DNA of 64,000 nucleotides from Bacteroidota bacterium (GTDB lineage Bacteria; Bacteroidota; Bacteroidia; Chitinophagales; Chitinophagaceae), in assembly GCA_013286305.1 (NCBI GenBank), contig JABDFW010000001.1, positions 1 through 64,000 of the forward strand. The letters are read 5' to 3'. Position 1 is the first letter of the stretch. Every line of letters begins with the position of its first letter. This document shows, in pieces, positions 49,881-56,931 of the stretch. The notes under the pieces were generated by a model. The model worked only from the letters and a program-made list of their open reading frames with translations. It had not been told where the DNA came from and did not search any database. The translations under genes were made by a program, and so were the position numbers.

Positions 49881-50801
49881 TTATGCTTTTTCAATTATAT
49901 ACTGCCAATTCTTAAACTTTGTAAATTTTAATTTTCCAAAGGGTTTAATATCCAATTTATTCATAAAATCCTTTCCAATTTTCAATAAATCAGAACGCCC
50001 TGTACGCTTTTCGTAACTTATAATTTTTTTTTCATTACTGATAATAATTGCAACATCAGTCGATTTAGATGGAAAATTTGAAGAAGCAATTGTAGTAATT
50101 CTCAATACCCCTTTTTTTATATCCTTTTCTGTAATTGTATTTCCATTATCAGGTAAATAAAATACGCTATTATTTTTGGCGGTTATCACTTTGTTTTCAA
50201 AATCACGATTTTTTGACTCTTTATTGGTTAAAACTAAGTGTGTGGGTTCTGTGCATATATTGCCCTTCAAATGATGATAGTATTTTATTTTATCATTAAT
50301 ACTAATACTTGCATTATGAAAAGGCACTTCAAATATTTCAGTGCTTTTGTATTGGCCTACTTTGCCATATTGGTTGGTGCGAAGATGAAAATTTCTTTTA
50401 ATTATGTTATGCTTTTCGAATTCTTCTGCTACTCGGTAATGCATTAGACATAAACGACTTGTCTTAGTATTATCCAATAAATTTAAAATTCGTTCTACTT
50501 CCCATTTGTCTATACTTACGAGGCTGCTTCTAGTTTCTACAATATCTCTGTTTAGGTCGGTAACTCCTATAATCCAATGATTAAAATTGTAAATATTATT
50601 TCCAAATATGGTTTCGTCACCTTTTAGTGGATCTACGATTGGCTGAGAAATAATGGAAGATTTAAATAACAGATTCCAAAAACTCAGATTTCTGCTAAAC
50701 CAGTGTGCATTTTTATTCGACACCTCGGGTGCATTTAATGCTAAAAAAAGTAAATCCATTTTCGGGTGTATGTATTCTTTCAGATTAACAGCGACTAGCA
50801 T
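49881..50801 (-). CDS. Protein with uracil-DNA-glycosylase-like N-terminal domain
   Basis: A 306-residue protein. Residues about 8-125 resemble the MUG/TDG branch of the UDG fold: YIHPKMDLLFLALNAPEVSNKNAHWFSRNLSFWNLLF is the nucleotide-flipping/active-site strand and loop, IIGVTDLNRDIVETRSS fits the second conserved strand, and TSRLCLMHYRVAEEF the final strand-loop. The catalytic Asp or Asn cannot be fixed confidently. The C-terminal 170 residues are lysine-rich and unrecognised. The gene is visibly AT-rich compared with its neighbours, suggesting transfer. Deaminated-DNA repair or a defence-like role is inference. Confidence 0.6.
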   Translation of the reverse strand: MLVAVNLKEYIHPKMDLLFLALNAPEVSNKNAHWFSRNLSFWNLLFKSSIISQPIVDPLKGDETIFGNNIYNFNHWIIGVTDLNRDIVETRSSLVSIDKWEVERILNLLDNTKTSRLCLMHYRVAEEFEKHNIIKRNFHLRTNQYGKVGQYKSTEIFEVPFHNASISINDKIKYYHHLKGNICTEPTHLVLTNKESKNRDFENKVITAKNNSVFYLPDNGNTITEKDIKKGVLRITTIASSNFPSKSTDVAIIISNEKKIISYEKRTGRSDLLKIGKDFMNKLDIKPFGKLKFTKFKNWQYIIEKA

Positions 50802-50969: not shown

Positions 50970-52787
50970 CTAATAATCTATTTCCAGTTTAAGCCTATCC
51001 TTTAACTCCTTCACCAGCGGAAATTGTTCTGCAATACGTTCAAAACGCTCGCGGCTGTTTAGCAGCATGCTTGCGGGTATTTCTTCTTTAACGCCTTCCT
51101 CCACAATAACTTTAAATGAAATACTGCGGTTATTGAATGCTTCCTGTATATGGCTCGCTACCATCATCCGCTCCTGCTCAATAAATTTTTGCTGGGTAAA
51201 AGCAAAAACAATTACGGTAAAAAAATTGTCCTCATCAATATGCAGCTTAGCGATACGAAAGGTTTTGCTGGATGAATGTTTTTGCTGTTCCTCCAGCGTA
51301 TCGGCGTATTTAAGCCAGCATCTCAGCAGGTCAGCATCATTTAGTGCAATGGCTTCTTTTATTACCTCAATATTGCGCGTTCCCTGGTATTTTTCCTGCA
51401 GTGTTTCCAGCAAATTTCTCTTAAGGCCGGTTTCGTTTGTTGCTGTAGTTGTATTTGCTGAAATGGGGCGCTGAACAACAGGCGCAGCGGCAGGTTTGGC
51501 TGTAGCAGCTACTGTAACAACGGCTTTGGTTTCCTGTATAAATAATTTTGGTTCGCCGTTATTTTGGTGGCCGTTTGTTTGGGTTACGGGTGCATTGATC
51601 TGTATAGACGGAACCGGTTTTGTTTTATAAGCTACCGGGCCGTCAACCCGTTTTTTTTTAACTACACTGCCATTCTCAACAGACAGCTCAATGGCCTGTT
51701 GTAAAAAATTAAGTTTTATCAGCGCCAGTTCTACATGCAGGCGCTTGTTACGCGCCATTTTATAATTTATTTCAGCCTCATTCAAAATATTAAGTGCGCT
51801 TACTAAATAAGCAGTGCCTGCTTTAGCCGCAGTGGACACATATTTTTCCTGCATGCCCTCCACTACATCAAGCAATGTAACGGCGCGGGCATCTTTACAT
51901 ACAAGAATGTTGCGCATAAATTCAGCTATGCCGTTTAACACCAGGTCACCTTCAAAACCTTTGCGGTTTATTTCATCATATAACAACATGCCGCCGGCCA
52001 TATCCTGCGCCATCAGGCAATCCAGCAGCTTAAAATAATAATCGTGGTCAAGTATGTTTAAATGCTCAAGCGTATTGCGGTAAGTAACCTCGCCATTGGT
52101 AAAGCTTACAATTTTATCAAGTATGCTTAATGCATCGCGCATGCAGCCTTCACTTTTTTGCGCTATTACCTGCAGGGCGGCTTTTTCAACGTGAATTTCT
52201 TCTTTGGTGGCAATCTCTTCCAGGTGCTCAACGGTATCATGAATGGTAATGCGCTTAAAATCAAATATCTGGCAGCGGCTAAGAATAGTTGGCAGTATTT
52301 TATGCTTCTCCGTAGTAGCCAAAATAAATATGGCGTAAGGCGGCGGCTCTTCCAGTGTTTTTAAAAAAGCGTTGAAGGCGCTTGCGCTAAGCATGTGTAC
52401 CTCATCCACTATATACACCTTGTATTTGCCTGCTTGTGGTGCAAAGCGTACCTGGTCAACTAAGTTTCGTATATCATCAACCGAGTTATTGCTGGCGGCA
52501 TCCAGCTCGTGAATGTTCAGCGAAGTACCCTCGTTAAACGACCTGCACGAATTACATTTATTACAAGCATCACCATCTGGTTGAATGTTTTCGCAATTAA
52601 TGGTTTTTGCAAGTATGCGCGCACAGGTTGTTTTACCCACCCCGCGCGGGCCGCAGAACAAAAAAGCATGCGCCAACTGGTTATTGGCAATAGCATTTTT
52701 TAGCGTGGTGGTAATATGCGCCTGCCCCACAACCGTATCAAAAGTTTGGGGGCGGTATTTGCGTGCCGAAACAATGAATTTATCCAT
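50970..52787 (-). CDS. dnaX: DNA polymerase III subunits gamma/tau (DnaX)
   Basis: A 605-residue clamp-loader ATPase. The AAA+ module has Walker A GPRGVGKT (46-53), zinc cysteines CNKCNSC and an upstream Cys (65, 75, 78, 81), DEVHML and TTEKHKILPTILSRCQ (sensor 1, arginine finger). After about 370 a proline- and threonine-rich linker leads to a C-terminal domain (KRNLLETLQEKYQGTRNIEVIKEAI, then FNNRSISFKVIVEEG) that contacts other subunits. There is no obvious slippery site for a short gamma form. The GNAT/small-protein pair lies upstream on the same strand. Confidence 0.97.
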   Translation of the reverse strand: MDKFIVSARKYRPQTFDTVVGQAHITTTLKNAIANNQLAHAFLFCGPRGVGKTTCARILAKTINCENIQPDGDACNKCNSCRSFNEGTSLNIHELDAASNNSVDDIRNLVDQVRFAPQAGKYKVYIVDEVHMLSASAFNAFLKTLEEPPPYAIFILATTEKHKILPTILSRCQIFDFKRITIHDTVEHLEEIATKEEIHVEKAALQVIAQKSEGCMRDALSILDKIVSFTNGEVTYRNTLEHLNILDHDYYFKLLDCLMAQDMAGGMLLYDEINRKGFEGDLVLNGIAEFMRNILVCKDARAVTLLDVVEGMQEKYVSTAAKAGTAYLVSALNILNEAEINYKMARNKRLHVELALIKLNFLQQAIELSVENGSVVKKKRVDGPVAYKTKPVPSIQINAPVTQTNGHQNNGEPKLFIQETKAVVTVAATAKPAAAPVVQRPISANTTTATNETGLKRNLLETLQEKYQGTRNIEVIKEAIALNDADLLRCWLKYADTLEEQQKHSSSKTFRIAKLHIDEDNFFTVIVFAFTQQKFIEQERMMVASHIQEAFNNRSISFKVIVEEGVKEEIPASMLLNSRERFERIAEQFPLVKELKDRLKLEIDY

Positions 52788-52907: not shown

Positions 52908-53081
52908 TTACTTAGCCGCTTTTGACCTTACACCAGTTTTTTTGACCCGGGTAGCTTTTTTGGCAACTTTTCCTGCTTTATAATCAAGAATGAATTTACT
53001 TATGGCTGCCCTGTCCTTATCAGATAAGGGCTTACTCTTAATTATAAAATCTACTCCTTCAGGTTCTTTTACGTATGCCAT
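52908..53081 (-). CDS. 57-residue basic protein, partner of the GNAT gene
   Basis: MAYVKEPEGVDFIIKSKPL followed by SDKDRAAISKFILDYKAGK and a lysine-rich C-terminus. It starts 2 bp after the stop of the upstream GNAT-like gene, so the two are clearly one unit. It was found by reading between dnaX and the GNAT gene, being too short for standard ORF calling. From memory, very similar small proteins (KEPxGVDF start) recur in Chitinophagaceae genomes. No HTH or ribbon-helix-helix is recognisable. An antitoxin-like or regulatory role is inferred from size and spacing. Confidence 0.72.
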   Translation of the reverse strand: MAYVKEPEGVDFIIKSKPLSDKDRAAISKFILDYKAGKVAKKATRVKKTGVRSKAAK

Positions 53082-53083
53082 AT

Positions 53084-53611
53084 TTAGGTTTTAAAATATT
53101 TTTCTACTAAAATTCGTGCCGGTTGTGTAGGTATTATCATTCTTTGACCACCGAAATGATAAGCCCCAAGTGTTCTTTCATAATGACGAATAAGTTTAGT
53201 TTTTGCATCAAAGGCTACAAATCCATCAAACCCTTTTTGAAAGGATATTTTGCATGCATATGCAACCAAATTTCCTGCTACACCTTCATATATCTTGTTT
53301 TTTCCAATATTGAAAGGAGCGCTTTCAATCAAATTCATAAAAATATGATCACTTTCAACGGAAACACTTAATAATCCCTGAATAATGGTTGGATTATTAA
53401 CAATGGTTAATTTATATACTTCCTTTTCATTATCCGCATATTCAATCTTCCAGTTGAACAACCATCCATTTTTCTTTGTTAATTGTTTAAGGTCATCCTT
53501 CGACAATTGAAACATTTCGGTTTGGAAACTGTCGCCTGAAATCGTGTTCCGAATTGAGTTTGTGAGCAAATCAATTTCAAAGTCCTGGAAGATATTTTTA
53601 GTTCTTCTCAC
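53084..53611 (-). CDS. GNAT-fold acetyltransferase-like protein
   Basis: A 175-residue protein starting at GTG 53611, since a stop codon lies immediately upstream. Residues 110-175 (GVAGNLVAYACKISFQKGFDGFVAFDAKTKLIRHYERTLGAYHFGGQRMIIPTQPA) fit the acetyl-CoA-binding half of GNAT proteins: a GxxxxLxxxAC helix start in place of the usual Q/RxxGxG/A loop, then a strand-helix-strand with RHYERTLGA. The N-terminal half is divergent. The tight spacing to the small gene at 53081 suggests a two-gene cassette. Confidence 0.7.
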   Translation of the reverse strand: MRRTKNIFQDFEIDLLTNSIRNTISGDSFQTEMFQLSKDDLKQLTKKNGWLFNWKIEYADNEKEVYKLTIVNNPTIIQGLLSVSVESDHIFMNLIESAPFNIGKNKIYEGVAGNLVAYACKISFQKGFDGFVAFDAKTKLIRHYERTLGAYHFGGQRMIIPTQPARILVEKYFKT

Positions 53612-53710: not shown

Positions 53711-53861
53711 CTACTCACTCCTCAACGCTTTAGCAGGGTTTGCCATGGCCGCTTTTATAGATTGAAAGCTGATGGTTAATATGTTATGGCTGCTACGACC
53801 ACTGCGGCTATTATAAAAACCACCGCACTATAGTAACTTGGTAATCACAATCCTGCAGCCA
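53711..53861 (-). pseudogene. 3-prime remnant of an ABC-transporter permease (FtsX/MacB family)
   Basis: Reading leftward across three frames gives WLQDCDYQVTIVRW, then FIIAAVVVAAIT, then LTISFQSIKAAMANPAKALRSE and a stop. This is the standard last helix and tail of MacB/FtsX-type permeases. At least two frameshifts separate the pieces, and nothing upstream of about 53861 resembles the rest of the gene, so only about 150 bp survive. The remaining 53612-54012 holds no other gene. Confidence 0.7.
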
Positions 53862-54012: not shown

Positions 54013-54930
54013 TTATCCCTTCTTAGCTGCCTCGCTCTCTTTATTCGCTTTTTCCTGGCCTATTCCCATGGTAAGTGCAGTTATACCGGCCATATTGCCA
54101 AGCTGCATGCTGTCAACCGCCGAGCTGGGCACTATCACAATAGTTGAGTTTTGTTTTAACCCTTCATACAGCATGTTCATGGCCCTTAAATGCAGGGCAA
54201 CCGGGTTGCTTGCATAGGTTAATGCAGCTTCCCCAAACTTCTCCGCTACCTGTTTTTCTGAATCACCGAGTATTACCCTGGCCTGCCGCTCCCTTTCAGC
54301 CTGCGCCTGCATTGACATCGCGTTCTCTAACGCCGCAGGTATCAAAACATCTTTTACTTCCACCGAATTAACCGTAATACCCCAGGGCTCAGTGCGCTCA
54401 TCAATAATTACCTGTAGTAAACCGCTTATCTTGTCCCTGCCCTCCAGCATGTCGGATAGCATTGTTTTTCCTATAACATCGCGCAATGCAGTTTGCGCAG
54501 CCCAGCTTATTGCACCCATATAATCCGCCACTTCCAGCGCGGCCTTTTGCGGGTCAAGCACTTTCCAAAACAGCACGGCATCTACATCAACCGGTACCGT
54601 GTCTTTGGTAAGCGTTTTTTCCGCTTTAAACGTGGTAGTTATAACACGGGTATCAATCCAGTAAGGGATAGTATCCAGTATGGGGATAATAAAAAACAAA
54701 CCAGCCCCCTTTAAAGAATTAAACTTGCCCAAACGCAAAACCACGGCTTTTTCCCATGGGTTAGCGATCTTGATGGACGAAGAAACTATCAAAGCAATTA
54801 CAAAGGCAACCGCAATGATCCCTTCGCTTGCCGGAATATCCAGTGTTCCGTTTACGGCATAAGCAATTGCCAGGCCAGCCCCGACAATTATAAAAAATAT
54901 TAAAGTGGAAAACAAGCTTTTATTTCTCAT
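54013..54930 (-). CDS. Slipin/stomatin-type SPFH membrane protein
   Basis: A 305-residue inner-membrane protein. Two hydrophobic segments (8-25 and 37-58) precede the SPFH core: IKIANPWEKAVVLRLGKFNSLKGAGLFFIIPILDTIPYWIDTR, then KDTVPVDVDAVLFWKV and VKDVLIPAALENAMSMQAQAERERQARVILGD. The C-terminus is a coiled coil of charged and alanine-rich residues. Slipins form membrane microdomains and often associate with an NfeD partner, which is not adjacent here. Confidence 0.92.
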   Translation of the reverse strand: MRNKSLFSTLIFFIIVGAGLAIAYAVNGTLDIPASEGIIAVAFVIALIVSSSIKIANPWEKAVVLRLGKFNSLKGAGLFFIIPILDTIPYWIDTRVITTTFKAEKTLTKDTVPVDVDAVLFWKVLDPQKAALEVADYMGAISWAAQTALRDVIGKTMLSDMLEGRDKISGLLQVIIDERTEPWGITVNSVEVKDVLIPAALENAMSMQAQAERERQARVILGDSEKQVAEKFGEAALTYASNPVALHLRAMNMLYEGLKQNSTIVIVPSSAVDSMQLGNMAGITALTMGIGQEKANKESEAAKKG

Positions 54931-56565: not shown

Positions 56566-56931
56566 ATGATTATAAAAAAAGAAGAAAATGAAATAATTGG
56601 TTCTTGGAATTTCGACGGGAGAACAATGATAAAAGATGAAAATTGTAAAAGAATAAACCTATTAATAACAAAGCATTTAAAAAAAATTGCTACCGATCAG
56701 AGTGGTTGGTGCACATTATATAAAAATCCTAATGATGACCGATTTTGGGAATTAGTTTATCTTCAAGGCGAAATGCACGGCGACGGCCCTCCTAGTTTAG
56801 TCAATATATCAAGCGAAAAAGCAGGTATATGTGTTGGCTATATAACTTTACATGCGCAGCATCCTCCGCCTAAAGCACAATGGTCGAGGATAAATATTAC
56901 CGGAAATAAATTTAATCATGACTTTCACTGA
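56566..56931 (+). CDS. Immunity protein, Imm27 family
   Basis: A 121-residue protein. NEIIGSWNFDGRTMIKDENCKRINLLITKHLKKIATDQSGWCTLYKNPNDDRFWELVYLQGEMHGDGPPSLVNISSEKA contains the Imm27 blocks: GSW, a CKRINLLI helix, DQSGWxxLYxNPxDxRFWEL, and QGEMHGDGPP. Such proteins neutralise a cognate polymorphic toxin. No toxin gene is encoded nearby, so this is an orphan immunity gene, possibly protecting against neighbours. It overlaps the next gene by 14 bp. Confidence 0.85.
   Translation: MIIKKEENEIIGSWNFDGRTMIKDENCKRINLLITKHLKKIATDQSGWCTLYKNPNDDRFWELVYLQGEMHGDGPPSLVNISSEKAGICVGYITLHAQHPPPKAQWSRINITGNKFNHDFH

Follow-up and report, generated by a model that had tools for sequence, protein, structure and literature searches.

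A two-gene cassette coding for a GNAT-like enzyme and a 57-residue protein

The window analyzed here is a stretch of 64,000 nucleotides (positions 1 to 64,000 of contig JABDFW010000001.1) from a Bacteroidota bacterium of the family Chitinophagaceae (GCA_013286305.1), the assembly of which comprises 161 contigs and is 69.6% complete. Between positions 52908 and 53611, it carries a pair of genes coding for a GNAT-like acetyltransferase and a small basic protein, which we examine as a candidate toxin-antitoxin (TA) module. The original prediction had read the two open reading frames (ORFs) as a cassette, and both are present with the small gene immediately past the stop codon of the larger one (Table 1). 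Two further copies of the enzyme are encoded in the same genome, one on contig C112 (48% identical), followed by a different 64-amino-acid (aa) ORF with an 11-bp overlap, and one on contig C54 (32% identical), followed by a 173-aa ORF with a 4-bp overlap. The presence of three copies in one genome, each with a downstream ORF, was thus the first sign that a partner is kept while its kind changes.

Table 1. Features of the gene pair and of its insertion site in the window
Feature	Position	Strand	Remark
GNAT-fold acetyltransferase, predicted toxin	53084..53611	-	175 aa; GTG start; fold modeled on homologue L127, 74% identical
Tyr144 codon	53180..53182	-	invariant in 53/53 aligned homologues
Stop codon of GNAT ORF	53084-53086	-	
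Gap from GNAT stop to partner ATG	53082..53083	-	2 bp
Partner, predicted antitoxin	52908..53081	-	57 aa; ATG start; residues 1-35 conserved, tail variable and basic
KEPEGVDF motif	53046..53069	-	codes for partner residues 5-12; no variation at E6 and P7 among 98 aligned partners
Replaceable segment	52840..53710	.	MNT-HEPN pair in G001; from genome comparison
dnaX, conserved left border of site	50970..52787	-	
ABC-permease C-terminal remnant, right border	53711..53820	-	common to G001

Fold and family of the enzyme

Searches with the 175-aa protein against Pfam, NCBIfam, PADLOC, PHROGs, and PDB sequences returned chance-level matches only. We used AlphaFold2, with 69 aligned rows, on the homologue L127, the toxin frame of which naturally reads through into the partner. 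The model (predicted local distance difference test score, 88.1; predicted template modeling score [pTM], 0.83) has TacT3 as its top match in VIA-align (Z 12.8; root mean square deviation, 2.6; 140 aligned), followed by the antitoxin-bound complex TacT3-TacA3 (Z 12.4), and Foldseek retrieved 7ak9 with an E value of 6.8e-5. AtaT, KacT, and PacT (chain 8gxj, Z 10.9) are also among the top 50 VIA-align matches, interspersed with RimI and other GNATs. Model and structure comparison thus bear out the assignment of the protein as GNAT-like and give it the fold typical of the toxins of the GNAT-ribbon-helix-helix (RHH) systems. Five positions (F52, G79, N101, L140, and Y144) show no variation across 53 homologues. 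As judged from the position of the motif and the titles of PDB entries only, rather than from a residue-level superposition, Tyr144 would sit where Y144 of AtaT and Y145 of KacT are expected.

Conservation of the partner gene behind the enzyme

Among 196 genomes, the source genome included, 57 carry the enzyme and 20 carry the small protein; when the latter was searched for independently, all 24 places lay directly beside a GNAT match (coordinates compared by eye). The GNAT search of these genomes gave 94 rows (about 90 distinct places), at 60 + 8 of which partners were read, the remainder being mostly distant. The enzyme is further present in 30 of 395 genomes drawn evenly across the phylum and in at least 582 confirmed stretches from a scan of named genomes, the best 80 of which are mostly from Bacteroidota, with some labeled Ignavibacteria, Chlorobiota, or Fibrobacterota. 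Those best 80 of at least 582, together with six viral contigs and seven plasmid or phage records, make up a second set of 93 loci.

The co-occurrence check proposed with the original prediction was run and showed the small gene to be conserved directly downstream of GNAT homologues: the partner was found there at 59/60 loci of the first set and 92/93 of the second, or 151 of the 153 loci examined, which are partly nonindependent (L061 and L170 share one contig, and L200 and L201 the same domain sequence). At one locus (L111) it stands 53 bp away, and at three (L094, L103, and L116) it follows a broken enzyme frame. As a control, an ATG-initiated ORF of 45 to 75 aa starting at -15 to +30 was found behind only 28 of 753 stops (3.7%) of ORFs of at least 150 aa at the same loci; hence, the co-occurrence exceeds chance. 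Of 148 partner ORFs identified by a simple rule, 146 begin no more than 30 bp from the stop codon of the toxin, and 36 overlap it. Such adjacent, co-oriented, and nearly overlapping genes are the arrangement expected of type II TA systems. In close pairs, with a proportion of nonsynonymous differences (pN) in the GNAT gene of up to about 0.1, the ratio of nonsynonymous to synonymous substitution rates is 0.05 to 0.16 for the GNAT gene and 0.09 to 0.32 for the partner. Both genes are under purifying selection and are inherited together.

The pair is also mobile and spread patchily without regard to its neighbors, as type II TA systems are. Across 124 cassettes with a small partner, the commonest flanking gene family occurs at only seven loci, from which it follows that only the two-gene pair travels. 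Relatives with short downstream ORFs of differing sequence (L203 to L209) are carried by large plasmids of Paenibacillus, Niallia, and Treponema and by one Fusobacterium phage. Viral scans with phage-type domains gave two loci, both already in the set, and five near-identical ones (L210 to L214).

The small partner

An alignment of 98 partners of the type found in the window, which we term KEP after the motif KEPxGVDF, showed that residues 1 to 35 are conserved, with E6 and P7 invariant and D11 present in 99%. Beyond them, a tail of about 21 residues varies (majority frequency 0.28 versus 0.71 for residues 1 to 35) but is basic, with a mean net charge of +6.8 and a charge of at least +5 in 83 of the 98; it could bind nucleic acid. 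Modeled alone, the window partner forms one helix without any strand (pTM 0.40), with block means of 76, 94, 87, 66, and 59 for residues 11-20, 21-30, 31-40, 41-50, and 51-57. In the read-through model of L127, a strand bridge is seen at partner residues 14-15, and the block means are 91, 95, 93, and 79 for residues 16-25, 26-35, 36-45, and 46-55. That model fits, and hints at without proving, a docking of the partner on the enzyme, with the caveat that the L127 and window partners are homologous rather than identical.

The view that the small protein does not adopt an RHH fold held up: the Pfam matches of 45 partners at an E value of 0.1 include no RHH family of the kind found in the antitoxins of GNAT-RHH systems, and the lone model is a single helix with no strands. 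By the same two lines of evidence, no DNA-binding domain of the kind that would serve the autoregulation typical of type II antitoxins was found in the small partner and, in particular, the window partner has no XRE-type helix-turn-helix (HTH) such as that of GNAT-Xre antitoxins. A VapB-like RHH identity was considered on the basis of a match to the NCBIfam model TA_VapB (E 0.0086), retrieved by 2 of 45 partners at an E value of 0.1, and was set aside as chance, as were three matches to PDB sequences (best E 0.0055).

Exchange of partners along the enzyme family and fusion to phage head proteins

Several kinds of partner accompany this enzyme: the KEPxGVDF type, three other small classes, a class of about 105 aa, HigA-like XRE proteins, and short ORFs behind phage head proteins. 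Profile comparison unites the KEP, LDVD, and DVF small classes in one family (97.7 and 97.0%), with the place of the YYLD class uncertain (1.8% to KEP, 42% to LDVD). Partners of about 105 aa, without a Pfam match, stand in place of the small one at L101 (3676-3990, minus strand) and L102 (4509-4820, plus strand), where the enzymes are about 45% identical to that of the window. Distant enzymes (28 to 38% identical) are followed by proteins of 156 to 183 aa, six of nine of which have an HTH_3 match and the profile of which matches HigA and YbaQ chains. Homology between the XRE and the small partners was considered and rejected (hhalign probability 0.6%). On the enzyme tree the partner classes are clustered, with 12 changes versus a shuffled mean of 41.5, suggesting that the swaps were few and mostly deep or old; the tree holds 88 of 133 rows, one KEP row in three being kept from the genome scan and partnerless rows having been dropped beforehand, and its bootstrap support is not settled.

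The same GNAT domain was also recovered at the C termini of phage head proteins. In Fusobacterium phage phiPaco (L205), it ends a 524-aa minor head protein (Phage_Mu_F, E 3.9e-11) that is followed, with a 4-bp overlap, by a 58-aa ORF, and at L200 it forms the end of a Phage_min_cap2 protein of 538 aa (E 1.8e-36), behind which lies a 65-aa ORF. These phage-side GNATs are 33 to 40% identical to the window enzyme, which, at 175 aa and by Pfam, has no N-terminal MuF-type head domain. A family of MuF proteins that end in a toxin and precede a small ORF read as an immunity gene has been described (PMC5576092), in a paper that uses neither "GNAT" nor "acetyltransferase" in its main text. GNAT domains of phage polyvalent proteins are described as two RimI-like families (PMC5512222).

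The insertion site and its neighborhood

Comparison with a genome of the same genus (G001) supports the earlier placement of the cassette in an accessory stretch: similarity extends until 52839 and resumes from 53711, so that the interval between is a replaceable slot. The remnant at its right border is real, the intergenic DNA coding for a permease-type C terminus that ends in KALRSE-stop. In G001, the interval holds an MNT-HEPN pair (L227 3531-4323, plus strand; PF01909, E 2.6e-11; PF05168, E 1.8e-13), of a type described as toxin-antitoxin (PMC2701414). With a GNAT pair and an MNT-HEPN pair found at one site, the slot behaves as a place where TA cassettes replace each other; in a second genome of the genus (G002), neither pair was seen there.

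Several neighboring genes deserve mention. An SPFH/band 7 gene (54013-54930, minus strand) was tried as a conserved border, but among the 59 genomes searched at an E value of 1e-60 it matched only its own and is uninformative on the site; lacking a match in the 58 others, it may be accessory too. The same accessory stretch holds an Imm27 homologue (56566-56931, plus strand; PF15590, E 1.2e-18), with no toxin recognized adjacent to it. On the other side, a 306-aa protein (49881-50801, minus strand) has no Pfam match at an E value of 1. Elsewhere, at L138, L181, and L182, the GNAT cassette has a member of a HigA-like gene family (identified by eye from its sequence) less than 1.5 kb upstream, which suggests clustering of TA genes.

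Weighing of the alternative explanations

Taken together, these observations make it likely that the pair is a mobile, toxin-first GNAT TA module, the antitoxin of which has no DNA-binding domain and probably docks directly on the toxin. Several points weigh against this. Ordinary GNATs score near the toxins in VIA-align (Listeria GNAT, 11.7; RimI, 11.5; PA4794, 11.4), so that the fold alone cannot separate a toxin from a metabolic GNAT. The docking model consists of two chains joined by a three-residue linker. Two loci, L114 and L192, code for intact toxins without a partner, although L192 seems to retain a short stub of the partner start. Finally, we had considered retention of the antitoxin after decay of the toxin as support, and the direction is as expected, with 15 broken toxins beside an intact partner versus the 2 intact toxins without one; yet P is 0.17 given the lengths, and because the enzyme is three times longer than the partner the excess is not significant. 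That tally leaves aside three loci where neither gene is intact (L216, L217, and L220), two ambiguous ones (L219 and L221), and one at a contig edge (L222), and the six broken toxins from the second set of loci (L121, L154, L160, L165, L194, and L195) have one in-frame stop each, which assembly errors could mimic.

If the enzyme served ordinary metabolism or resistance, with the small protein as an accessory, in the way suggested in 2009 for GNAT-Xre and GNAT-RHH operons (PMC2701414), the scores near those of toxins would be accounted for, as GNATs of many functions share the fold. We nevertheless consider such a role very unlikely, as replacement by an MNT-HEPN pair, HigA-like partners, and a place at the ends of phage head proteins are all unexpected of a metabolic enzyme. 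The first two of these point to a TA function and count equally against the proposal that the lysine-rich tail is the acetylation target of a regulatory enzyme-substrate unit, in which a nucleic acid binder is switched by acetylation. The strong basicity of the tails and the GNAT nature of the enzyme agree with such a unit, but the tail is the least conserved region of the partner, and the partners in other clades are unrelated in sequence, a change that should not be tolerated if enzyme and substrate were a fixed pair; we regard this proposal as improbable. The phage head proteins with small ORFs downstream bring up the possibility of a captured toxin-immunity pair, the small partner (with the enzyme) guarding against phages with GNAT-bearing head proteins, particularly as the small ORFs behind MuF toxin genes have been read as immunity genes (PMC5576092). 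Against this, the phage-side GNATs are divergent and their small ORFs look unlike the window partner, the cassette fits no PADLOC model, and the enzyme persists in stand-alone form, for which immunity alone would have no use; we regard this possibility, too, as improbable.

Proposed mode of action and implications

In the TA reading, toxicity, neutralization, and an acetylated target are predicted for this pair. The GNAT protein would acetylate an essential cellular amine, most likely that of aminoacyl-tRNA, as do its nearest structural relatives TacT3 and AtaT, with the result that translation would stop. The 57-aa partner is predicted not to fold as an independent domain; its conserved KEPxGVDF segment probably contributes a short strand to the enzyme, on which the partner helix would pack, and the basic tail may touch either the enzyme or nucleic acid. 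At the 81 KEP loci where the enzyme is intact and 170 to 180 aa long, its earliest in-frame start is GTG or TTG at 43 loci and ATG at 38, and the partner start is ATG at all 81 (assignment was mechanical, and ATG took precedence in the case of the partner). This bias would favor an excess of partner despite its being encoded second, and tight coupling of the genes may help to secure it. In relatives, the same enzyme is paired with HigA-like XRE partners, and in some phages the domain forms the end of a head protein, with the small ORF behind it as a putative immunity gene by analogy with MuF toxins.

More broadly, we see about even odds that these proteins form a GNAT effector superfamily with two lives, as stand-alone TA modules on replicons of Bacteroidota, Fibrobacterota, Bacillota, and Spirochaetota and as C termini of phage head proteins. 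Its partners would have been exchanged several times among clamp-like antitoxins of about 57 aa, the class of about 105 aa, HigA-like proteins, and phage small ORFs, and the KEPxGVDF partner would be a new type of antitoxin without a DNA-binding domain. The enzyme, present in hundreds of genome stretches (at least 582), has no Pfam or NCBIfam model and goes unrecognized. If it is a toxin, it adds a GNAT toxin family with a very small antitoxin of a new type, shows one enzyme with a naturally occurring range of exchanged partners, and links chromosomal TA pairs to effectors built into phage heads.

Comparison with known systems

HigBA and other toxin-first modules resemble the pair in placing the toxin gene first, and the XRE partners of its distant relatives match HigA profiles, but the window partner is not HigA-like, and the enzyme is a GNAT, unlike HigB-type toxins, which are RelE-fold RNases. 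The MuF polymorphic toxins of temperate phages (PMC5576092) share the homologous C-terminal GNAT domain, in L205 and L200, and the small ORF, whereas the window protein stands alone. In the accessible descriptions, GNAT enzymes are paired with RHH proteins, with Xre proteins, with DUF4065 proteins, and, in a predicted toxin-first arrangement, with winged HTH proteins (PMC9177977, PMC9561280, PMC6929052). Searches of the open-access literature, PMC12226406 among it, yielded neither this enzyme nor its partner, most subscription papers lying outside that scope.

The GNAT-RHH systems (TacT/TacA, AtaT/AtaR, and KacT) are alike in the GNAT fold and the two-gene unit and provide the top structural matches. 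They differ in that their antitoxin is an RHH protein of the DUF1778 family (PMC9177977) encoded first (PMC6929052), whereas here a 57-aa protein without a DNA-binding fold is encoded second, behind an enzyme without a sequence-family match. The original prediction was right that the order is reversed, but this is not unique: the predicted GacTA, a GNAT-winged HTH pair, already has the toxin first (PMC6929052), and PacTA, a GNAT-Xre pair, provides an earlier case of a non-RHH partner (PMC9561280). The GNAT-Xre systems (PacTA, the 2009 prediction, and the toxin-first GacTA) are alike in coupling a GNAT toxin to a non-RHH partner, and distant members of the present family have a downstream XRE protein; the window partner, however, has no HTH, and PacA has an extra N-terminal domain (PMC9561280). 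What distinguishes the pair from the known GNAT TA systems is a partner without any DNA-binding domain.
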